From Gammaproteobacteria bacterium (GTDB taxonomy: Bacteria > Pseudomonadota > Gammaproteobacteria > Pseudomonadales > JAUIET01): DNA of 64,000 nucleotides. Made by a program: the position numbers and the translations under genes. Numbering within the stretch: position 1 is the first letter of the stretch; every line of letters begins with the position of its first letter. Below are positions 2-10,046 of this stretch, in pieces. The notes under the pieces are model-generated. The model did no database searches. It had not been told where the DNA came from and was given only the letters and a program-made list of their open reading frames with translations. Location of the stretch: NCBI GenBank assembly GCA_030429735.1, contig JAUIET010000005.1:139905-203904 (forward strand). Direction: 5' to 3'.

Positions 2-814
2 ACGCTGAACACGTCAATCTACTTGAGTCGAAGTGGCGTCCCTACCCGGTATGTGACGGCCCTGGGTGATGACATCATGAGCGACTGGCTACTGCAAGAG
101 TGGCAGGCGGAAGGTATCGATTGCTCTCTGGTTGAACGTATGCCTAACTCAGTGCCGGGTATGTATATGATCAACGTAGCAGCGGATGGGGAGCGATCAT
201 TCTTGTATTGGCGAAAAGGGTCTCCCGCCAGCCGATTGTTTGATGACATTGATCGAACAGAGCGGCTGTTTGACGCGCTTGCTGGATGTAGCCACTTGTA
301 TTTGTCTGGGATTAGCCTGGGCATTCTCCCGGAGAAATCCCTGCATGGCCTGTTTGGTTACCTTACCGCCTACAGGCAAGCCGGCGGAAAGATCATTTTC
401 GATGGCAACTATCGACCAAACCTTTGGATAAATGCGGCGACCGCCAGGCAAGTGTATACGCAGATGTACAGTCTCACAGACCTTGCGCTACCAACATTGG
501 AAGATGAGTCCTTACTGTTCGGCTTTGAAACAGCCGAGCAGGTGATTGATGCACTGCAGAAGCATGGCGTGCCCGAGATTGTGGTAAAGATGGGCGGGTC
601 CGGGTGTTTGCTTGCGCAAGGAAAAGCGCGCCAGCGCGTTGCGGCAGTGCAGGTGACACCGGTTGACACCACAGCGGCGGGTGACAGTTTTAACGCGGGC
701 TTTCTTGCCGCCAGGTTGAACGGCTGTTCGGGGGCAGAAGCCTGCCAGGCGGGCCATGCGCTGGCGTCCGAGGTTATTCAACACCGGGGTGCGATTATTC
801 CGCGCAGCCGCTGA
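2..814 (+). CDS. kdgK: 2-keto-3-deoxygluconate kinase, 5'-truncated by window edge
   Basis: Cytosolic PfkB-family sugar kinase that phosphorylates KDG to KDPG, the last step before Entner-Doudoroff aldol cleavage in alginate and hexuronate breakdown. The frame is open from base 2 and already reads TLNTSIYLSRSGVPTRYVTA, matching the GGDTLNT segment of E. coli KdgK, so about 35 N-terminal residues lie outside the window. The PfkB signature DTTAAGDSFNAGF near the end carries the catalytic Asp, and IFDGNYRPNLW and VIQHRGAIIPRS also fit KdgK. The TTG at 23 is an internal Leu codon, not a start. It precedes the DEH reductase and alginate lyase genes. Identification is firm; only the N-terminus is missing. 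Confidence 0.93.
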   Translation, partial: TLNTSIYLSRSGVPTRYVTALGDDIMSDWLLQEWQAEGIDCSLVERMPNSVPGMYMINVAADGERSFLYWRKGSPASRLFDDIDRTERLFDALAGCSHLYLSGISLGILPEKSLHGLFGYLTAYRQAGGKIIFDGNYRPNLWINAATARQVYTQMYSLTDLALPTLEDESLLFGFETAEQVIDALQKHGVPEIVVKMGGSGCLLAQGKARQRVAAVQVTPVDTTAAGDSFNAGFLAARLNGCSGAEACQAGHALASEVIQHRGAIIPRSR

Positions 815-851
815 GCCACTCAAGCGGCATCGCACTCTGTTAGAAATTGGA

Positions 852-890
852 TTTACATACCTGCTGACAATTGGTATGTAAAATTGGTTG
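852..890. promoter_or_regulatory. inverted repeat with ATTGGTAT-type half-sites upstream of the SDR-PL6-MFS run
   Basis: TTTACATAC (852-860) and GTATGTAAA (874-882) are perfect 9-bp arms 13 bp apart. The right arm is part of TTGGTATGTAAA, and AATTGG recurs at 882-887. TTGGT/ACCAA half-sites are typical of FadR-subfamily GntR regulators such as UxuR, and similar half-sites recur at 6854-7016. The repeat ends over the -35 box of the promoter at 888-916, as expected of a repressor site. It could also act as an RNA hairpin after kdgK, but no T-run follows. Confidence 0.45.
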
Positions 891-916
891 CTAAATTTGC
901 TAGTCCAATTTATTAT
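888..916 (+). promoter_or_regulatory. sigma70-like promoter for the SDR-lyase-carrier run
   Basis: A -35 box TTGCTA (888-893) and a -10 box TATTAT (911-916) are separated by 17 bp. This places the transcript start near 923 with a leader of roughly 87 nt before the SDR start at 1010. The 195-bp gap after kdgK and the operator-like repeat just upstream support a separate promoter here. Hexamer matches are partial, so this is a candidate only. Confidence 0.4.
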
Positions 917-1009: not shown

Positions 1010-1762
1010 ATGACTATGAAAAACAAAGTTGCCATCGTTGCCGGTGGCGCGCGCGATATTGGAAGAGCCGTTTCCGAAAGTCTGGCGGCTGCCGGGGCAA
1101 AAGTAGTGGTTAACTACTGCAACAACTCTGAAAGTGCCGAGTCAACATTGGCGGCCATCAAAGCAGCGGGCGGTGAGGCCATTGCTGTACGTGGTGATAT
1201 GACCAAGGCGACGGATGTAGCAAACCTGGTCAGCGAGACGCAAGCCGCATTCGGTGATTCGATTGATGTGTTGGTCAACGTTGTGGGTGGCCTGGTTGCT
1301 CGCAAGCCACTTGCTGAAATGGATGAAGAATTCTTCGAGCATGTAATGAAGCTCAATGTAACCAGTACATTTTTGACCACCAAAGCCGTGGTTCCACATA
1401 TGCCACAGGGCAGTGCTATTGTGAATTTCGCCTCTCAAGCTGGTCGCGACGGTGGTGGCCCTGGCGCTGCGGCGTACGGCACATCAAAAGGTGCCGTGAT
1501 GACATTTACCCGCGCAATGGCCAAAGAGCTTGGCCCATCCGGCATCCGCGTGAACTGCCTGTGCCCTGGAATGATCAGCACAACATTCCATGATACGTTC
1601 ACCAAAGACGAAGTGCGCACTGCTGTTGCTGGCAACACCCCTCTGCGTAGAGAAGGGCAAGCCGCGGAAACGGCTGCTTTGGCGCTGTATCTGGCGTCAT
1701 CAGAGTCCAGCTTTATCACTGGCGCGAGTATCGATATCAACGGCGGTACTCTGTTTTCATAA
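1010..1762 (+). CDS. short-chain dehydrogenase/reductase, probable DEH (unsaturated uronate) reductase
   Basis: NAD(P)-dependent SDR of 250 residues, the usual classical-SDR length. The nucleotide-binding loop is GGARDIGRA near residue 12 (a variant of TGxxxGIG), and the catalytic part shows FASQAG with Ser and AAYGTSK with the Tyr-x3-Lys pair. The C-terminus ends with the family-typical TGASIDINGG. Its place between kdgK and an alginate lyase suggests that it reduces 4-deoxy-L-erythro-5-hexoseulose uronate (DEH), the product of exolytic alginate cleavage, to KDG. That substrate is inferred from context; sequence alone says only SDR (FabG-like). ATG 1010 was chosen from the frame; no strong Shine-Dalgarno sequence is visible. 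A 9-bp hairpin follows the stop. Confidence 0.85.
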   Translation: MTMKNKVAIVAGGARDIGRAVSESLAAAGAKVVVNYCNNSESAESTLAAIKAAGGEAIAVRGDMTKATDVANLVSETQAAFGDSIDVLVNVVGGLVARKPLAEMDEEFFEHVMKLNVTSTFLTTKAVVPHMPQGSAIVNFASQAGRDGGGPGAAAYGTSKGAVMTFTRAMAKELGPSGIRVNCLCPGMISTTFHDTFTKDEVRTAVAGNTPLRREGQAAETAALALYLASSESSFITGASIDINGGTLFS

Positions 1763-1800: not shown

Positions 1801-1841
1801 CAGAGTAGACAAATCCTGAACGTGAAAGGTGAGTGATAATC

Positions 1842-4100
1842 ATGCGACCTGCCAGCTTGCTTACAGTCTCTCTGATACTCTTGCTCACCGCATGTGCACC
1901 GACTGATGCCATTCGTTCAATGCCATTCGATGCCGGCACTACGCTTGTAAGCACGGTTGAGGAGTTCGATAAGGCAGTTTCTGCGCTACAACCGGGCGAC
2001 ACGCTGGTGTTAGCTAATGGCACCTGGACTGACGCAGAACTGGTGTTCAAAGCAATCGGCCAGCCAGACAATCCAATTGAGCTGAAAGCAGAACAAGCTG
2101 GCAAGGTTATTATCAAAGGCCAGTCCAATCTGAGCATATCGGGCTCGCACCTGATAGTTTCCGGCCTGGTGTTCAAAGAAGGCTTTACGCCCACAAGCGA
2201 AGTTATCTCTTTTCGAACATCGAAAAATGATTTGGCAAACCACGTTCGGGTACACAATACTGTTATTGATGGTTTCAGTAACCCCGAGCGCTATTCTGCA
2301 GACACTTGGGTAGCGATTTACGGCAAAAACAATACCTTTGATCACAATTCATTGCTGAACAAAGGTAATCGTGGTGTGACTTTGGCGGTGAAGATGACCA
2401 CTAAAGCCAGCCAGGAAAATGGCCACGTCATAGAATACAATTACTTTGGGCCGCGCCAGACTCTGGGTTCGAATGGCGGAGAAACGCTTAGGATCGGCAC
2501 CAGTCATTATTCCCGTGACTATTCCAATACAGTTGTCCAGCATAACTATTTTGATCGCACCAGTGGTGAACTGGAAATCATCTCCAGTAAGTCATGCGGC
2601 AACATAATCAAGGGCAACGTTTTCTTCGAAAGTCAGGGAACCCTGACAATGCGCCACGGCCACAACACCCTGGTTGAGAACAATTATTTTCTGGGTAATG
2701 GCAAACCCAATACGGGTGGCATTCGCATCATTAATGAATATCAAACCGTTAAGAACAATTACCTGTACGGTTTGACGGGGCACCGGTTTCGCGGTGCTCT
2801 GGTGATTATGAACGGCGTGCCGAACTCCCCGATTAACCGTTACAACCAGGTTGTTGATTCACACATGCTGAATAACATCGTGGTCGACAGTGATCATATT
2901 CAGTTGTGCGCAGGCAGTGATGCAGAACGCTCTGCAACACCTGTTGGTTCGTCCATGCACAACAACATTATCATGAGCAAAACGAACCTTAATCCGTTTA
3001 CCGTGTACGATGACGTGTCCGGTATCAGTTTTCAAGGCAACATCGTTAATGATGAGATCACAGTTCCAATCAACGGCGGTTTCGAGAAAGTGCCCTATTC
3101 AGTGTCTGAAAACAGGCATGGGTTACGAGTTCCGGCTCAGCACCTGATTGACGGCATTTCCTTCGGCGAAGTGAAACTACCTGTCGCCAAGCAAGACACA
3201 GGTGCGAGTTATTATCCAAAACCAGGACCAGGTAAAAAAGCGCCCAGCAACAATACAATTGCCGTTACTCCTGGAACTGATACCATTGTTGCCGCGCTTA
3301 AAAACAGCGGGCCCGGCGACACTTTGCTTCTTGAAAATGGCAAAGAATATCTGCTGAAAAAGTTCGCGGTGGTTAATCACCCAATTACTATCAAGGCCAA
3401 GTCAGGCGGCAAGGCCATCATTCGCTCAGAAAAATCAACTTTCTTCACCATCGAAAATGGCGGGGCACTTGTGCTTGAAAATATTTGGATGGATGGCAGC
3501 GAGTCGCCGGATACGGCTGGCAACAATGTGATCAGTACAAGCCGCTATTCGATGAATCAGAATTACTCACTAGCCGTGCGTAATTGCAAAGTGACGGATC
3601 TGGATGTGAATCACAGTTTTGATTTCCTGAAAGTGTACCGAAGCACGTTTGCTGATTCGATTGAGATACGCGATACCGAGATGAGCAATGTGAGCGGAAC
3701 AATCCTGTCATTGGCTGAGGAAACCGATGATCTGGGAATGTACAACGTTGAAAACCTGGACATCATCAATAGCAAATTTACCGATATCCAGGGACCGATT
3801 GCACATGTCTACCGGGGTGGTACGGACGAGAGCACTTTTGGGCCTATTGTGCGTGTACACGGCAATGAGTTTAAAAATGCAGGTCATGGAAAGCGAAATA
3901 AGACTGGCGCTTCGTTCAAGTTTCACGGTGTGCAAAACCTGAACATTTCAGATTCTACCTGGCTCAACAGTTCACCGCTTGCTCTGCATCTAAGCAATGG
4001 TGAACCAATTACGATCATAGAAGACGTTGTTATGGACGGCACGGCGAACATCGTGGCGAATAATGACCAGTACAAAGTCAGAAACATTAGCTACAAATAG
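1842..4100 (+). CDS. PL6 alginate lyase, two-domain, lipoprotein
   Basis: Polysaccharide lyase family 6 enzyme (752 residues) of the chondroitinase B/AlyGC type, cleaving alginate by beta-elimination. The start is ATG 1842 (GTG 1833 also possible): AGGTGAG lies about 9 nt upstream, and the resulting N-terminus is a lipoprotein signal ending LLTAC, so the enzyme is probably envelope-anchored. N211, E243 and E245 fit the calcium ligands, and K250 and R271 fit the catalytic base and acid. The spacing N-x31-E-x-E-x4-K-x20-R matches AlyGC (N181, E213, E215, K220, R241) with a constant offset of 30. Residues to about 400 form the catalytic beta-helix; about 430-752 form a second beta-helix, as in AlyGC, so exolytic release of monomer is likely. 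Cotranscription with the SDR and MFS genes is probable. Confidence 0.93.
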   Translation: MRPASLLTVSLILLLTACAPTDAIRSMPFDAGTTLVSTVEEFDKAVSALQPGDTLVLANGTWTDAELVFKAIGQPDNPIELKAEQAGKVIIKGQSNLSISGSHLIVSGLVFKEGFTPTSEVISFRTSKNDLANHVRVHNTVIDGFSNPERYSADTWVAIYGKNNTFDHNSLLNKGNRGVTLAVKMTTKASQENGHVIEYNYFGPRQTLGSNGGETLRIGTSHYSRDYSNTVVQHNYFDRTSGELEIISSKSCGNIIKGNVFFESQGTLTMRHGHNTLVENNYFLGNGKPNTGGIRIINEYQTVKNNYLYGLTGHRFRGALVIMNGVPNSPINRYNQVVDSHMLNNIVVDSDHIQLCAGSDAERSATPVGSSMHNNIIMSKTNLNPFTVYDDVSGISFQGNIVNDEITVPINGGFEKVPYSVSENRHGLRVPAQHLIDGISFGEVKLPVAKQDTGASYYPKPGPGKKAPSNNTIAVTPGTDTIVAALKNSGPGDTLLLENGKEYLLKKFAVVNHPITIKAKSGGKAIIRSEKSTFFTIENGGALVLENIWMDGSESPDTAGNNVISTSRYSMNQNYSLAVRNCKVTDLDVNHSFDFLKVYRSTFADSIEIRDTEMSNVSGTILSLAEETDDLGMYNVENLDIINSKFTDIQGPIAHVYRGGTDESTFGPIVRVHGNEFKNAGHGKRNKTGASFKFHGVQNLNISDSTWLNSSPLALHLSNGEPITIIEDVVMDGTANIVANNDQYKVRNISYK

Positions 4101-4196: not shown

Positions 4197-5507
4197 ATGC
4201 AAATAAAAAACCTCAGATGGTGGGTTATCACTTTAATCGCGCTGGCGACGGTCATCAATTACATCGACCGGCAATCGTTGAACGTGTTATGGCCGGCCAT
4301 ATCGGCAGATATTTATCCAGATAAAACCGCGGATGAGCGGAAAGAGATCTACGCATTTATCTCGGTTGTCTTCGTATTCTCGTATGCGTTTGGTCAAGCC
4401 ATCTTCGGCAAAATATTTGATTGGGTAGGAACGCGTCTTGGGTTTGCCTTATCGATTGGTATCTGGTCTTTGGCGACTGCGGCGCATGCGCTGGCAGCCG
4501 GACTGGCAAGTTTCAGTATTTTTCGGGGCATTTTGGGTGTGGCCGAAGCAGGTAACTGGCCCGGCGCAACCAAGGGTAACGCGGAATGGTTCCCGATCAA
4601 AGAGCGTGCCTTGGCGCAGGGCATATTTAACTCGGGCGCGGCTATCGGCGGTATTATCTCCATTCCACTGATCGCCTATCTTTCGGTGTTTTTCAGTTGG
4701 CAGGCTATTTTTATTATTGTCGGCTTGGTGGGTTTGTTATGGCTGGTCCCATGGATGGTGCTGGTAAAGGCGCCACCTAAAGACCACCCCTGGATCACCG
4801 AGGAAGAGCGCGAGTATATTCTTACCGGGCAAAAAAATACGCAAGCCGAACAGGGCAATGAAGAAGGCTATAATCCGTCTACCTCGGAAATGCTGTCTCG
4901 CAAACAAAGCTGGGGCGTTATTATTGCCTCTGCCGCCATAGATCCCATCTGGTGGCTGTTTGTGTTCTGGATTCCAATCTATCTTTCCGAAGTGTATTCC
5001 ATGGACGTCAAAACCATTGGTATCTATGGCTGGGTTCCGTACGTTGGCGCGATGGTGGGTGCCTGGTTTGGCGGTCTGCTGGCGCAAAACCGCCTTAAGT
5101 CTGGCTGGAGTGTTAACCGCACGCGAAAAACGGTAATAACTCTCGGTTGTTTGATCATGCTTCCAGCATTGCTGGCAATGTCCAACCCTGGGGCTCCGGT
5201 CAATGCTGTGCTGTTAATGGCGGTTATTCTGTTTGGCTTTCAAACAGCGATTGGTAACGTTCAAACCTTGCCCAGTGATTTTTATGGTGGAAACACGGTA
5301 GGAACGCTGGCGGGCTTTGCCGGTATGGCTGCAAAATTAACAGCTGCCGCGTTAACGTCACTGGTGCCCTGGCTGACGTCCGGTGGCAACTACACGCCGG
5401 CGTTCGTGATTGGTGCGTCACTCGCGGTGATTGCGATGCTCAGTGTTTGGGTTTTGTGCCCGAAGATTGAGCCGCTGGCAGCGAAACCGAATATGGCCCG
5501 GTCATAA
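4197..5507 (+). CDS. MFS hexuronate-type carrier (ExuT-like, ACS family)
   Basis: Inner-membrane major facilitator of the anion:cation symporter family, 436 residues with about 12 hydrophobic segments. The first helix carries NYIDRQSLNVLWPAI, close to the NYIDR motif of ExuT/GudP-type sugar-acid carriers, and EAGNWPGA and the FDWVGTRLG loop also fit. AGAGGA lies just upstream of ATG 4197. It follows the alginate lyase by 96 bp on the same strand, so it probably imports the unsaturated uronate monomer (DEH) or a related uronate. The stop TAA (5505-5507) abuts the complementary stop of the Nramp-like gene, leaving no room for a terminator. Confidence 0.88.
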   Translation: MQIKNLRWWVITLIALATVINYIDRQSLNVLWPAISADIYPDKTADERKEIYAFISVVFVFSYAFGQAIFGKIFDWVGTRLGFALSIGIWSLATAAHALAAGLASFSIFRGILGVAEAGNWPGATKGNAEWFPIKERALAQGIFNSGAAIGGIISIPLIAYLSVFFSWQAIFIIVGLVGLLWLVPWMVLVKAPPKDHPWITEEEREYILTGQKNTQAEQGNEEGYNPSTSEMLSRKQSWGVIIASAAIDPIWWLFVFWIPIYLSEVYSMDVKTIGIYGWVPYVGAMVGAWFGGLLAQNRLKSGWSVNRTRKTVITLGCLIMLPALLAMSNPGAPVNAVLLMAVILFGFQTAIGNVQTLPSDFYGGNTVGTLAGFAGMAAKLTAAALTSLVPWLTSGGNYTPAFVIGASLAVIAMLSVWVLCPKIEPLAAKPNMARS

Positions 5508-6791
5508 GATCTGCAAGACGCCTTTGATGGCGATGAATGAAGTAAAGATTGAGAACAATAGAATCACTGTAAGAATAGTGTTAGCTACCCAGGTGTTAAC
5601 ATGTTCTTGCAGCAGATCTTTACGGTTACTCAGATAAAAAATACACAATACAGTAATCGGCAGGATAACCGCGTTGAAGGCTTGCGAAATAATCATCACA
5701 AGCACGGGTCTGGCTTCGAATATAGGCACCACCAGACCCAACAGGGAAATCAGAAAGACCATGACTCTGTACCTGCTCAAGGTCATGTCCCGCTCAGTGC
5801 CCATATAGTCGCACAGTAACCATGGAAGCATTAGCACATTTGGAAACTGCGAAGACACGCCTGCAGCAATAAGCCCTATAGCAAAGATCGATGTTGCAAG
5901 TGACCCTGCTAAAGGTTCCAGCAGTTCGATCATTTGCGATGCCTTTGTTAAGCCAATACCCTCAACGTGCAAAGTCCCTGCCGCTGCAGCCATGATCGAT
6001 GCGCTGATCACAAACATCAATGCCACTGAGAAAGCTGCATCATTGCGCTGCTTCTTATAGTCCATCAAGGTCCAGCCGGCTTCCTTCACCAGCGTGGTGC
6101 GAATAATGAATAGGCCTGAAAACACGGTGGTGCCGATCATCGATGCAATAACCAGCAGGGCACCGCTGCCTGGAATAGGGCCGCCACCTGGTGCGTCCAC
6201 CTGTGGGATGTTTGGTATCAAGCCAAGTGCAATATCACCCGGTGGCGGCATCATGATGAAGAAATTGATCAAAAAGCACGTAGCCATGATCGCGACAATG
6301 ACGGCCAGGCTGCGCTCGAAGAACTCCGTTTTTCCATTCCAGAATATGTAGTACACCAGACTGACAAAGAAAGCCGCAAAGTAGATGGGTGAAATGCCGC
6401 CTTCGATGAGTGTTTTAGACCACTCATAACAGATATCCGCAACGATACCCATCACACCCATTACGCTGCCGCATACACCGGCAGTCAACGCGATAATAAA
6501 ATAGATGCCTACGGCCGGGTGAAGGTGTTTTCGAAATGCCTGAAGTGCCGTCTCACCGGTAATTACGGTGTAACGACCGTACAGGTTGATCATGAAAAAC
6601 GTGCATAAACAGGAGGCTACAATTGTCCATAGCAGTGACATGCCGTAGTCTGCGCCCGCTTTGGCCATGGCGGTAACGCTGCCAGTCCCAATATTGAAGC
6701 CAAGTAAAAATATGCCGGGCAATACAAGGGCAAGCATCTTGGCAAATTGGCTTTGGCGCTTGTTCGGTGTTGCAGTGCTTGTTCTTGTCAT
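5502..6791 (-). CDS. Nramp-related transporter lacking the metal-site residues
   Basis: Inner-membrane protein of 429 residues with about 11 helices and the Nramp/LeuT-fold pattern (KAGADYGMSLLW after helix 1, as in MntH QAGASFGYQLLW). Canonical Nramp metal transporters carry DPGN in helix 1 and MPH in helix 6. Here the aligned positions read GTGS (residues 35-38) and FSG (224-226), so the Mn/Fe-coordinating Asp, Asn, Met and His are absent. It is therefore unlikely to be a standard Mn2+/Fe2+ importer. It is divergent from the TonB receptor and shares a control region full of ATTGGTA repeats, so it is probably induced with alginate genes. Transport of an organic acid or another cation is possible; the substrate is unknown. 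Confidence 0.82.
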   Translation of the reverse strand: MTRTSTATPNKRQSQFAKMLALVLPGIFLLGFNIGTGSVTAMAKAGADYGMSLLWTIVASCLCTFFMINLYGRYTVITGETALQAFRKHLHPAVGIYFIIALTAGVCGSVMGVMGIVADICYEWSKTLIEGGISPIYFAAFFVSLVYYIFWNGKTEFFERSLAVIVAIMATCFLINFFIMMPPPGDIALGLIPNIPQVDAPGGGPIPGSGALLVIASMIGTTVFSGLFIIRTTLVKEAGWTLMDYKKQRNDAAFSVALMFVISASIMAAAAGTLHVEGIGLTKASQMIELLEPLAGSLATSIFAIGLIAAGVSSQFPNVLMLPWLLCDYMGTERDMTLSRYRVMVFLISLLGLVVPIFEARPVLVMIISQAFNAVILPITVLCIFYLSNRKDLLQEHVNTWVANTILTVILLFSIFTSFIAIKGVLQIL

Positions 6792-6853
6792 GGCGTACCC
6801 TGATTTCGCTTGTCATACACTTAGCCAGCAGTATGCCTCAATATCGGATATCA

Positions 6854-7016
6854 ATTGGTATGCATATAATAAATATATTGGTATTACCAATATGAACTCA
6901 TTGGTGTAATAAAATACAACTATTGGTAAAAAAAGATGGTATCTCCAATTGGTTTTATGTAAACTGACCGGCAGTACCATAAAAGAGCCTACCAATGGCC
7001 AATAAATTCATACCAA
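6854..7016. promoter_or_regulatory. operator array between Nramp-like and TonB-receptor genes
   Basis: The divergent intergenic region holds a 19-bp palindrome (6875-6893) with core ATTGGTA-T-TACCAAT, plus half-sites ATTGGTA at 6854-6860 and 6922-6928, TTGGTG at 6901-6906, CCAATTGG at 6945-6952, TACCAAT at 6990-6996 and TACCAA at 7011-7016. TTGGT-N-ACCAA symmetry is the known preference of FadR/UxuR-type GntR regulators. The array probably controls both divergent genes. No GntR gene lies in the window, so the regulator must be encoded elsewhere. Confidence 0.7.
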
Positions 7017-7055
7017 AGTGTGTTTAACACCCTAACCAAAGATGAGAAAACTACG

Positions 7056-10046
7056 ATGAAATCATTAAAAAGAGGAGCCCCCACGCACGCTGCGCGCCCG
7101 TCGTCTAAAGGGCTGATGATTGGCGGCTTGTCGCTAACGCTGTCGGCACTGTCAAACGGTGTCTATGCGCAAACCAGCGAACCAGTTTTGGAAGAGGTTA
7201 TTGTCACAAGCGGTATTCGTGGGTCTCTTGCCAGCGCTCTTAATCAGAAGCGCAATGCGGATAACCTGAAAGAAGTCATTATGGCGGAAGACATTGGTAA
7301 GCTGCCTGATCAAAACCTGGCTGAGGTTCTTGAGAACATTACGGGTGTCCAGATTACGCGTTCCGCCGGTATTGGTACCGGCGTTCAAATCCGCGGTACT
7401 AATTCAAACCGCATCGAAATTAATGGTGTATCTACCGTAGGTTCTGGCGCTGGTCGTAGCGGTATTGATTTTGAAGACGTTAACGCATCGATAATTGCTG
7501 GTGTGGAAGTAATCAAAGCGCCTGAAGCGAAAACCATCGAAGGTTCAGTTGGTGGCACTATCAACCTGAAAACAATTCGTCCTCTCGACCTTGATGACAT
7601 GTTGGTGTCTGCTCGTATACAAGGTGAGGACAGCAGCCTCAGCACAGAAAGCACACAACCACGGTTTTCTGCGGCGTTTGGTAATAACTGGGAGACTGAC
7701 GCAGGTAAATTTGGGGTTGTAATCAGTGGCAGCTACACCGAGCAGGAAGCGGTATCTTTCCGCCCTCGAACTGACCGCGACAACCTGTCCAGCGTTCCTG
7801 GCGGTCCGCAGGACTTTTTAGGCATTCAATTCCTTCTGCAGGAACAGGAAAATGACGACTACGAAACTACCAACTTAGCGACTAGTTTCGAATTTGCTCC
7901 CAATGACGACCTGAAATTCTATTTTGATGCCATCATCAATGAGCAAGAACGAAGCCGTGACAATTACAGAGTCCAGGCATCTGGAGTATCTGCACATAGA
8001 AACCGTCAGGCACCGGATGAGTTGGAGACACTCAATATCGGGCGATTTGGCGACTCTGATATAGGCACTTTAATGGCAGCGGTAAGGGGCACTATTGAGC
8101 CCGACCTGGCCAATGATGACGACGATCCAAACCTTCGATTCTCCAGCGAGACAGGTTCTCGTGTTACCGACAGCGAGATCTTTCGATTAGGTGGCGAATG
8201 GCAAAACGAAAGGTGGTCTGCTCGTGTTGAGCTTGCATCAACCAGCGCTGACACCACCAACCCAACGCTGAACACGACCTTAAACTTTATCAACCCCAAC
8301 TGCCCGCTGGATGGCGCAGCGACAGGTGATCCAAGCACCAGTAACGATAACTGTGTGCCCTTTATTTATGACCTGAGAGGAGGTTCATTATCATTCGGCA
8401 TCAACTTTGATTCACCGTTTGCCCCAACAATTGATCAACTTACCGATCCTGCCAATGTCGTACTGGATCAGGTGGATGTGGGTCGTAACAGGCAGGAAAA
8501 TTCTGAAGAGGCGTTCCGCGCTGACTTTTCCTTCAAGCTTGACGAGTACAGCATTACGTCCATCGACTTCGGTTATCGGTACAACGAATCTGAAAGCAGT
8601 TTTGAGGACATAGATGACCGAATTGGCGGCTTCAGCCGATTGGAAGACAGCCCGCGAGGCACTCTGTTTCAAGAGCTTCTTGTAAGAGGTCCAAGCAATT
8701 ATGGAGACGCCGATGGCAGAGCTCTTGCTATCCGTAATTTCCTTCTTGTAGATCCGGATCGTTCGTTTTCTGACCCCGAAGGTACCATAGCGATTCTTGA
8801 GCGTGCACTTGCTGAACAGCGCACATTGGAGCCTGGCGCTGACGGCGATCTCGTCTTAGAGCTGGAATCCGATCAGAACGCTTTTTATGACATCAGCGAA
8901 GAAACCCATGCTCTGTACGCTCAGGTAAACTTTGAAACAGGAATCATACGTGGCAACTTTGGCGTGCGTTATGTGCAGACCGATATTGATTCAACAGCGT
9001 TTGGTCCTGAAGACGCCAATGGATTAAGATCACTGCAAACAACGAGTGGTGACTATAGCTTCCTGCTGCCGCGTTTAAATCTGGTTGTCCAGCCAATTGA
9101 TGAGCTGCTCATTCGCATGGGTGCCGGTAAAGATATCCGTCGTCCAGATTTTGATGACCTGAATACAGGGTTCACCTTTACTGAAAACGAAAATACTGCG
9201 ATTCAGTTAGGAAATGCAGGCCTGGTGCCAGAAGAAGTAATTTCCTGGGATCTTGCTGCTGAATGGTATTTCGCGCCAGCGTCAGTAGTGAGTATCGGTT
9301 ACTTCAATAAGGAACGGAAAAATCTGTTTGGCACAACCTTAAACGGTGCCGAGCTGACTCCAGACGGAATGGGTGGTTTCACAGCAGAGACTGATCCGAC
9401 CTGCCCTGGTGGTGGTATCTTTAACCCTGACGTTATACCTAATGTATTGGGTGACCCAAACACTACCGGTTTGTGTGTTGACTTCGAGCAGCCTGGGAAT
9501 GACACCGCAACAACAACCCAACAAGGCATAGAGCTGGCCTTCCAGTATGACCTCGCGCAGTTCGAAGATCGCCTGGGTTGGGCATCTGGTTTCGGCTTCA
9601 TCTTTAACTACACTATGCAAGACTTCAGCGGTGGCTCAGCGATTGATACCACTTCGGGTCGTGGTGCAACTGTACTAGGTGATGTAAGCGCTCCAGAAGG
9701 TCTTCTCGATTTTTCTGAAGATGCCTACAACTTCACGGTGTACTACGAGAAGTACGGCCTGTCAGCCAGAATGCGTTACACATGGCGTGAAGCATTCAGA
9801 ACTGAAGACTTCGCAGGTGGTGCTAGCGTTAACAGTACGTTCAGCTTCCCGGTTGTGACTGACGACAGAGGGCAGCTGAATGCCAGCATCAGTTACGATG
9901 TAACGGAGAACTTTACGCTGGGTGTTGAAGCCGTGAACCTGACAGAAGAAAACATTGAGCAGCGTTGTATCAATGGCGGTGGACCTCTGTGTTTCGTGGG
10001 CTACCCTGACCGAAGAATCACCTTTGGTTTGAGCTACCGCATGTAA
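7056..10046 (+). CDS. TonB-dependent outer-membrane receptor, probable alginate oligosaccharide uptake
   Basis: Outer-membrane active transporter of 996 residues. ATG 7056 is preferred to GTG 7020, because the 7020 start adds a charged tail before the signal peptide and has no ribosome site. The signal peptide ends near GVYAQ, followed by a TonB-box-like EEVIVTSG and a plug domain with AEDIGKLPDQNLAEVLENITGVQI compressed into residues about 70-100, which is diagnostic of the large Xanthomonas/Caulobacter-type receptor family used for carbohydrates. The barrel follows and ends GLSYRM. Cys pairs in predicted loops (for example around 8300-8350 and 9400-9480) may form disulfides. The operator array upstream and a strong terminator downstream make it a single-gene unit of the alginate regulon. 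The exact ligand is inferred. Confidence 0.9.
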   Translation: MKSLKRGAPTHAARPSSKGLMIGGLSLTLSALSNGVYAQTSEPVLEEVIVTSGIRGSLASALNQKRNADNLKEVIMAEDIGKLPDQNLAEVLENITGVQITRSAGIGTGVQIRGTNSNRIEINGVSTVGSGAGRSGIDFEDVNASIIAGVEVIKAPEAKTIEGSVGGTINLKTIRPLDLDDMLVSARIQGEDSSLSTESTQPRFSAAFGNNWETDAGKFGVVISGSYTEQEAVSFRPRTDRDNLSSVPGGPQDFLGIQFLLQEQENDDYETTNLATSFEFAPNDDLKFYFDAIINEQERSRDNYRVQASGVSAHRNRQAPDELETLNIGRFGDSDIGTLMAAVRGTIEPDLANDDDDPNLRFSSETGSRVTDSEIFRLGGEWQNERWSARVELASTSADTTNPTLNTTLNFINPNCPLDGAATGDPSTSNDNCVPFIYDLRGGSLSFGINFDSPFAPTIDQLTDPANVVLDQVDVGRNRQENSEEAFRADFSFKLDEYSITSIDFGYRYNESESSFEDIDDRIGGFSRLEDSPRGTLFQELLVRGPSNYGDADGRALAIRNFLLVDPDRSFSDPEGTIAILERALAEQRTLEPGADGDLVLELESDQNAFYDISEETHALYAQVNFETGIIRGNFGVRYVQTDIDSTAFGPEDANGLRSLQTTSGDYSFLLPRLNLVVQPIDELLIRMGAGKDIRRPDFDDLNTGFTFTENENTAIQLGNAGLVPEEVISWDLAAEWYFAPASVVSIGYFNKERKNLFGTTLNGAELTPDGMGGFTAETDPTCPGGGIFNPDVIPNVLGDPNTTGLCVDFEQPGNDTATTTQQGIELAFQYDLAQFEDRLGWASGFGFIFNYTMQDFSGGSAIDTTSGRGATVLGDVSAPEGLLDFSEDAYNFTVYYEKYGLSARMRYTWREAFRTEDFAGGASVNSTFSFPVVTDDRGQLNASISYDVTENFTLGVEAVNLTEENIEQRCINGGGPLCFVGYPDRRITFGLSYRM

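Follow-up and report, generated by a model that had tools for sequence, protein, structure and literature searches.

A phased array of ATTGGTA half-sites in a gammaproteobacterial alginate cluster, probably bound by a neighboring GntR-type regulator

We have confirmed that the control region between two divergent genes of a gammaproteobacterial alginate cluster holds an array of ATTGGTA half-sites beyond chance. The sites are clustered, conserved among relatives, set on a lattice whose pitch is about 11.35 bp, and tied genomically to the gene of a GntR-type regulator next door, which, to judge from sequence, probably binds the array. Many related bacteria show the same regular spacing, which hints that several repressors are arranged side by side along the DNA.

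Alginate is a major polysaccharide of brown algae, and we found little in print on the control of its uptake in Gammaproteobacteria. Full-text searches, which covered few subscription papers and gave titles and the starts of abstracts among the matches listed, yielded no paper that describes such phasing or an operator for an alginate GntR regulator of Gammaproteobacteria. The alginate locus of Vibrio sp. C42 holds gntR genes, two of which are induced by alginate and were deleted according to the methods (PMC13390454, accessible part). In that same part, no operator or footprint was described, and a search of the paper's text for 'palindrom', 'EMSA' and 'promoter' gave none (PMC13390454).

The half-site array and its gene neighborhood

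The window, i.e., the whole 64,000-bp stretch of DNA analyzed (C20:139905-203904), belongs to a genome of 5.03 Mb in 24 contigs. The genes and regions concerned are as follows.

C20:136437-137198, GntR/FCD regulator gene (253 aa), 2.7 kb to the left of window base 1
23..814, plus strand, PfkB kinase, KdgK-like, its 5' part beyond the window edge
846..909, no strand, weaker half-site group 5' of the SDR (DehR-like) gene: ATTGG at 846, ATTGGTA at 870, ATTGGTT at 883, CCAAT at 905
1010..1762, plus strand, SDR oxidoreductase by family matches, DehR-like by context
1833..4100, plus strand, polysaccharide lyase (Pfam Chondroitinase B)
4197..5507, plus strand, MFS transporter by family matches
5502..6791, minus strand, Nramp-like transporter, proposed divergent target of the regulator
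6792..7055, no strand, intergenic control region of the divergent Nramp-like and TBDT genes (264 bp)
7056..10046, plus strand, TonB-dependent receptor, TBDT (TIGR01782), proposed target of the regulator

The TBDT start was taken as the ATG at 7056; a longer, GTG-started frame runs from 7020. The lyase at 1833-4100 is presumably PL6 and the gene at 1010-1762 presumably DehR, and the labels PL6, PL17, DehR and KdgK are in part presumptive; the KdgK-like kinase scores below its NCBIfam equivalog cut-off (344.5 vs 400). The protein encoded at 5502-6791 matches the Pfam Nramp family (8.6e-58), and its sequence lacks the DPG and MPH motifs that usually form the metal site of Nramp proteins. Nramp-like genes are present in 23 of 80 alginate loci (the best 80 of 381), in both phyla. 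Because the two motifs are absent and such genes recur in alginate loci, the transporter may carry a substrate other than Mn or Fe. Adjoining the cluster, at L006:685-11004, a reading of translations found an RpiR/HexR-like regulator with Entner-Doudoroff genes, two glyceraldehyde-3-phosphate dehydrogenase-like genes and a PEP carboxylase; by that reading alone, these genes would provide a route for KDPG from alginate.

The array in the Nramp-like/TBDT control region consists of the following elements.

6854..6860, plus strand, half-site ATTGGTA, dyad 23 bp from that of the palindrome
6875..6893, no strand, 19-bp palindrome ATATTGGTATTACCAATAT with core TTGGTATTACCAA, proposed high-affinity operator
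6900..6906, plus strand, half-site ATTGGTG, 23-bp step
6922..6928, plus strand, half-site ATTGGTA, 22-bp step
6948..6954, plus strand, half-site ATTGGTT, 26-bp step
6990..6996, minus strand, half-site TACCAAT, dyad step of 34 bp
7011..7017, minus strand, half-site TACCAAA, 21-bp step

The palindrome is built of two 9-bp arms with a T at the center, and ATTGGTANTACCAAT has its single exact copy in the genome here. Five forward ATTGGT repeats start at 6854, 6877, 6900, 6922 and 6948. The 264-bp intergenic region is AT-rich (35.6% GC) and holds five exact ATTGGTA/TACCAAT sites against a shuffle mean of 0.13, and nine half-sites with at most one mismatch against 2.03; neither count was reached in any of 2000 shuffles. 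An earlier note on this DNA had described a 19-bp palindrome and six more half-sites crowded into 163 bp between divergent genes. All are present where it placed them and lie far beyond chance: that stretch has five exact half-sites (0/2000 shuffles) and seven with at most one mismatch (3/2000). When a 163-bp frame was slid along the window in 10-bp steps, the half-site count peaked at eight over the control region and was at most three elsewhere. The same note had seen the half-site type recur at 852-890; the recurrence is real (846-890) but not significant by itself, with one exact site (79/2000 shuffles reach one) and two with at most one mismatch (413/2000). A standard sigma-70 scan revealed no clear TBDT promoter in the window, and its single match, on the minus strand at 6963-6936, is at chance level (shuffle mean 1.4).

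The neighboring regulator and its operator type

The genome holds three GntR-domain genes, two of them with an FCD domain, in keeping with the earlier expectation of a GntR-type regulator. The earlier note had placed that regulator 'elsewhere', and this has to be corrected: one GntR/FCD gene belongs to this very cluster, lying 2.7 kb outside the window, and has a similar palindrome in its own promoter region, so that the regulator of the array is most simply a local one. The gene is divergent from an oligoalginate-lyase-like gene and is followed by the KdgK-like, DehR-like, lyase, MFS, Nramp-like and TBDT genes. The other FCD-GntR gene, on C21, was rejected as the regulator, since neither a half-site nor a palindrome occurs within 430 bp before its start. 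The regulator has the N-terminal GntR winged helix (PF00392, 74.5 bits, cut-off 27) and C-terminal FCD domain (PF07729, 79.8 bits, cut-off 24.3) of the FadR subfamily. Its best HMM relatives include NanR, ExuR and UxuR, and it stays below the NCBIfam equivalog/subfamily cut-offs of ExuR (113.4 vs 396), UxuR (112.4 vs 442), NanR (104.3 vs 260), LldR (98.6 vs 311) and PdhR (75.7 vs 330). A G-rich stretch resembling a ribosome-binding site precedes the ATG of the 253-aa protein, in which the GntR domain starts at residue 6 (residue 29 of the 276-aa TTG-started frame); the TTG start, if true, would add 23 residues.

The regulator/lyase intergenic region contains AATTGGTCCTACCAAAT and two more ATTGGT half-sites. 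A genome scan for the palindrome was proposed in the earlier note as a check. There are 14 exact copies of TTGGTNNNACCAA in the 5.03-Mb genome, the same number as for the reversed control, so the palindrome is not enriched genome-wide; 12 of the 14 lie inside stop-to-stop open frames of 235-635 codons, and the remaining two are the TBDT control-region site and the regulator promoter-region site, both in the same alginate cluster. Being outside frames here means lying outside open frames of at least 120 codons, which are open frames rather than gene calls. As the genome-wide count equals that of the control, it is the position of TTGGTNNNACCAA that is informative, and not the motif alone. Pairs of TTGGTA 10-40 bp apart were likewise not enriched in the genome (13 forward and 8 reverse pairs, the control giving 11 and 15), and a one-mismatch palindrome at C16:70357 was set aside as lying inside a 642-codon open frame.

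In the accessible text of a GntR survey, the FadR-subfamily consensus consists of TKGT/ACMA boxes with 2-3 nt between GT and AC, 3 nt being listed for FadR, ExuR, PdhR and LldR and 2 nt for UxuR (PMC4494728). The two palindromes of the cluster read TTGGT-ATT-ACCAA and TTGGT-CCT-ACCAA, an N3 arrangement that fits this consensus. Comparison with UxuR/FadR-type motifs, another check named in the earlier note, thus places the sites with the 3-nt type and not with the 2-nt UxuR type. The idea of a GntR-type (FadR/FCD) operator array, denser than a single palindrome, in the alginate control region is supported as well. The window's site shares the TKGT-N3-ACMA palindrome with ExuR/PdhR/LldR-type operators, but differs from them in having phased half-sites lined up across about 160 bp.

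Conservation and spacing of the half-sites in relatives

Relatives were taken from the best 80 of 381 loci, in named genomes, found by a genome scan with the lyase. Half-sites were counted in 330 bp per region against 100 dinucleotide shuffles each. Upstream of 28 TBDT orthologues there were 96 half-sites vs 26.2 expected, bearing out the predicted enrichment of the motif near alginate genes in relatives, and upstream of 28 GntR orthologues there were 68 vs 18.0; some of these regions overlap (divergent genes), and three GntR regions are near-copies. Zero half-sites were found in one TBDT region (L148) and in five GntR regions (L028, L032, the second GntR of L083, L138 and L139, the last repeating L028). 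In L083 and L137, the GntR gene is directly divergent from the TBDT gene, with GATTGGTCCTACCAATTGA in between in the former and half-sites but no palindrome in the latter. Two GntR paralogues share one alginate locus in L051, L083 and L143; in L051 and L083, one paralogue falls in the group of the window's regulator and the other on a different branch.

In the family of G439, the TBDT occurs in 94 of 395 genomes (E <=1e-250) and the GntR protein in 124 of 395 (E <=1e-45). The GntR protein is present in 91 of the 94 TBDT-positive genomes vs 33 of the 301 TBDT-negative ones (Fisher p 7e-57, ignoring shared descent). The three exceptions, G646, G746 and G839, have a TBDT homologue among the lower-scoring matches and no GntR at the cut-off. 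In a comparison by eye, both genes lie on one contig within 10 kb in at least 36 genomes, and within 1.5 kb in at least 29.

For analysis of spacing, a half-site was defined as ATTGGTA with at most one mismatch, TGG being kept, and was assigned the center of the palindrome to which it would belong. The discovery set comprised 49 non-redundant regions (51 after merging of overlaps, with 2 near-copies dropped). Its 112 center differences of 5-80 bp group near 12, 23, 34, 45, 57 and 68, with a mean cosine of 0.65 at the best period of 11.4 bp; the maximum of 2000 jitters of up to 6 bp, with the best period taken between 10 and 12.5, was 0.27. For a second set, the half-site definition, statistic and period were fixed before the sequences were fetched. 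Sixty upstream regions (54 and 6 from two match lists) were hand-picked for spread of genus and identity, 11 of which were dropped (8 like discovery regions, 3 like each other) and 49 kept; they come mostly from genomes new relative to the discovery set, yet from related families, and 400 bp upstream were taken where the prior plan had about 450 bp. Here, 94 pairs gave a mean cosine of 0.55, and the maximum of 5000 jitters was 0.26; five of the 49 regions had no half-site (L208, L225, L227, L246 and L248).

Across all 98 regions (206 pairs), the best period was 11.35 bp (bootstrap 11.25-11.45) with a cosine of 0.60, and a period of 10.5 bp was rejected (-0.09). Neighboring centers form step clusters of which the first four average 12.4, 23.0, 33.8 and 45.2 bp, most steps being 22-24, 33-35 or 44-46 bp. 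The window alone scored 0.61 at 11.4 bp (13 differences). An exact palindrome occurs in 20 of the 98 regions, and the 31 dyads within 5-80 bp of the 21 exact palindromes had a mean cosine of 0.72. The lattice as a mere set of arrangements shared by descent was rejected: when events of the same type, spacing and position were collapsed, the cosine was 0.563 (175 events; jitters max 0.131), and when each orientation-and-spacing type was counted once, it was 0.474 (126 types; jitters max 0.168), both still above every jitter.

The controls were not flat. Coding DNA just downstream in the second set scored 0.247 (44 pairs), and the remaining non-coding DNA of gammaproteobacterial loci (105.5 kb, 100 pairs) scored 0.38 at 11.4 as a raw value. 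Dyads of the true motif number 8.32 per kb (206 pairs), whereas seven control 7-mers have at most 3.97 per kb and at most 37 pairs. The four of these with at least 30 pairs score 0.18-0.38, the top one sharing TGGTA with the real motif; the other three, with 1-7 pairs, score 0.64, 0.24 and -0.50, which is too few pairs to be informative. Since the coding control and control 7-mers score above zero, part of the lattice signal may reflect shared descent or composition. TTGAC[AC] occurs within 330 bp in 59 of 76 TBDT regions, and dyads lie near -44, -34, -11, +1 and +24 from TTGAC, these being raw positions that are partly shared by descent. The repeat of B-DNA is 10.5 bp; with a period of 11.35 bp, a simple same-face picture therefore fails over long distances, and by arithmetic such a pitch would amount to about 30 degrees of extra turn per step on relaxed B-DNA, or else to underwinding of the bound DNA.

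The characterized alginate GntR regulator is AusR of Zobellia galactanivorans, a repressor according to the consulted part of PMC8286568. Excerpts of PMC7874173 and PMC8286568 state that it binds operators present in one, two or three copies and that products of alginate breakdown release it. We sorted the 80 best loci (of 381) by organism name and obtained 38 flavobacterial loci with 62 kb of non-coding DNA. These hold 361 half-site centers, and 122 of 183 pairs lie at 12-14 bp, where one palindrome can give two centers 1 bp apart because of its N2 spacing; 84 of 99 same-strand pairs lie at exactly 13 bp, some counted from both strands. The palindromes (TTGGTWWACCA-A-TTGGTWWACCAA) are arranged in tandem, repeat every 13 bp and are probably AusR operators. 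Two or three tandem copies of the N2 palindrome are found in flavobacterial loci among L033-L104 (e.g., L040:9037, L057:9075 and L092:8656). Downstream of the TBDT in Paraglaciecola arctica (L036:8145-8199), TACCAAT occurs four times, at steps of 12, 24 and 12 bp, which resembles the flavobacterial pitch.

From their loci, we infer that the 19 flavobacterial GntR rows are AusR orthologues. They stand on the opposite side of a 100/100 branch from 28 gammaproteobacterial rows and share 24-28% identity with the window's regulator, which does not group with them. Both groups have a FadR-type GntR regulator in alginate loci, the TTGGT half-site and several operator copies in alginate gene promoters, but the flavobacterial operator is a tandem N2 palindrome with a 13-bp pitch, whereas the window's group has N3 palindromes and an 11.35-bp half-site lattice.

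Proposed mechanism, alternatives and significance

We consider it likely, on the sequence evidence above, that the neighboring GntR/FadR-subfamily regulator uses the region as a multi-site operator, on which a cooperative row of dimers would repress the Nramp and TBDT promoters. One dimer would bind the palindrome TTGGTNNNACCAA, and further dimers would occupy imperfect or half operators, in register, at center-to-center distances of 22-24, 33-35 or 44-46 bp; the row would thereby cover both divergent promoters. The second palindrome would give the regulator control of its own gene as well as of the divergent oligoalginate-lyase-like gene; the DehR-like gene may be a further target. Its release, if AusR of Zobellia is a guide, would be brought about by a product of alginate breakdown. 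The earlier note had suggested cooperative control, and the phased spacing does point to cooperative binding; cooperativity itself, like binding, repression and the effector, is something that we infer.

Several other readings have to be weighed against a cooperative row. It is doubtful that this is a NanR-type operator, in which dimers would sit asymmetrically on repeated direct half-sites with no need for a palindrome, although the array does have five forward ATTGGT repeats and NanR is a FadR-subfamily protein among the regulator's best HMM relatives. According to the accessible text on NanR of Escherichia coli, several dimers assemble cooperatively on (GGTATA)3 at intervals of about half a turn, spacers of +6 nt attenuate binding, and cooperativity requires a 32-residue N-terminal extension (PMC8012715). 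The window's array instead has steps of 23, 23, 22, 26, 34 and 21 bp, and most steps are near 23, 34 or 45 bp; its regulator lacks the extension if the ATG is the start, and true palindromes recur among relatives. We also think it unlikely that the palindrome is the sole functional operator, bound by one dimer, with the extra half-sites as inert or low-affinity decoys. Several relatives have few or no half-sites, and according to the survey text consulted, GntR-family palindromes are commonly accompanied, on one or both sides, by a weaker extra box that lies 7-12 nt from the center and has no known role (PMC4494728). However, the half-site spacing is strongly non-random and was replicated, including around the exact palindromes, and inert half-sites would be expected to drift out of register.

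Quite improbable, in our view, is that the sites belong to another regulator or that the GntR protein is an activator. Many dyads do lie upstream of TTGAC in relatives, as activator sites can, but others overlap or follow it; the genome has one other FCD-type GntR, and that gene lacks such sites upstream, while AusR is a repressor (PMC8286568, part consulted). Least of all do we expect the periodicity to be a property of AT-rich promoter DNA, such as phased A-tracts, rather than of protein binding. The base composition of the region and the weakly positive control 7-mers speak for it; against it stand the density of the true motif and its cosine (0.60 vs 0.18-0.38), a best period of 11.35 rather than 10.5 bp, and the 13 bp seen instead in flavobacterial loci.

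A bolder form of the cooperative-row reading can be offered only tentatively. The dimers might form an open-ended row on half-sites placed every 11.35 bp or a multiple thereof, with the palindrome as seed, and would either wind slowly round the duplex or underwind the DNA. The number of half-sites might then tune strength and steepness for each promoter, and GntR regulators of two phyla, related only distantly to each other, might both have built multi-copy alginate switches with pitches of 11.35 and 13 bp.

Multi-copy GntR operators are already known as a kind, and the phased gammaproteobacterial form appears new in the light of the searches above. The array links a specific regulator to a transporter across many genera, and natural promoters that differ in half-site number and in-register spacing provide a ready-made test bed. 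If the lattice reflects dimer-dimer assembly, a one-component repressor would gain steepness by tuning the number of its sites, and one would have to ask why the pitch differs from that of B-DNA.
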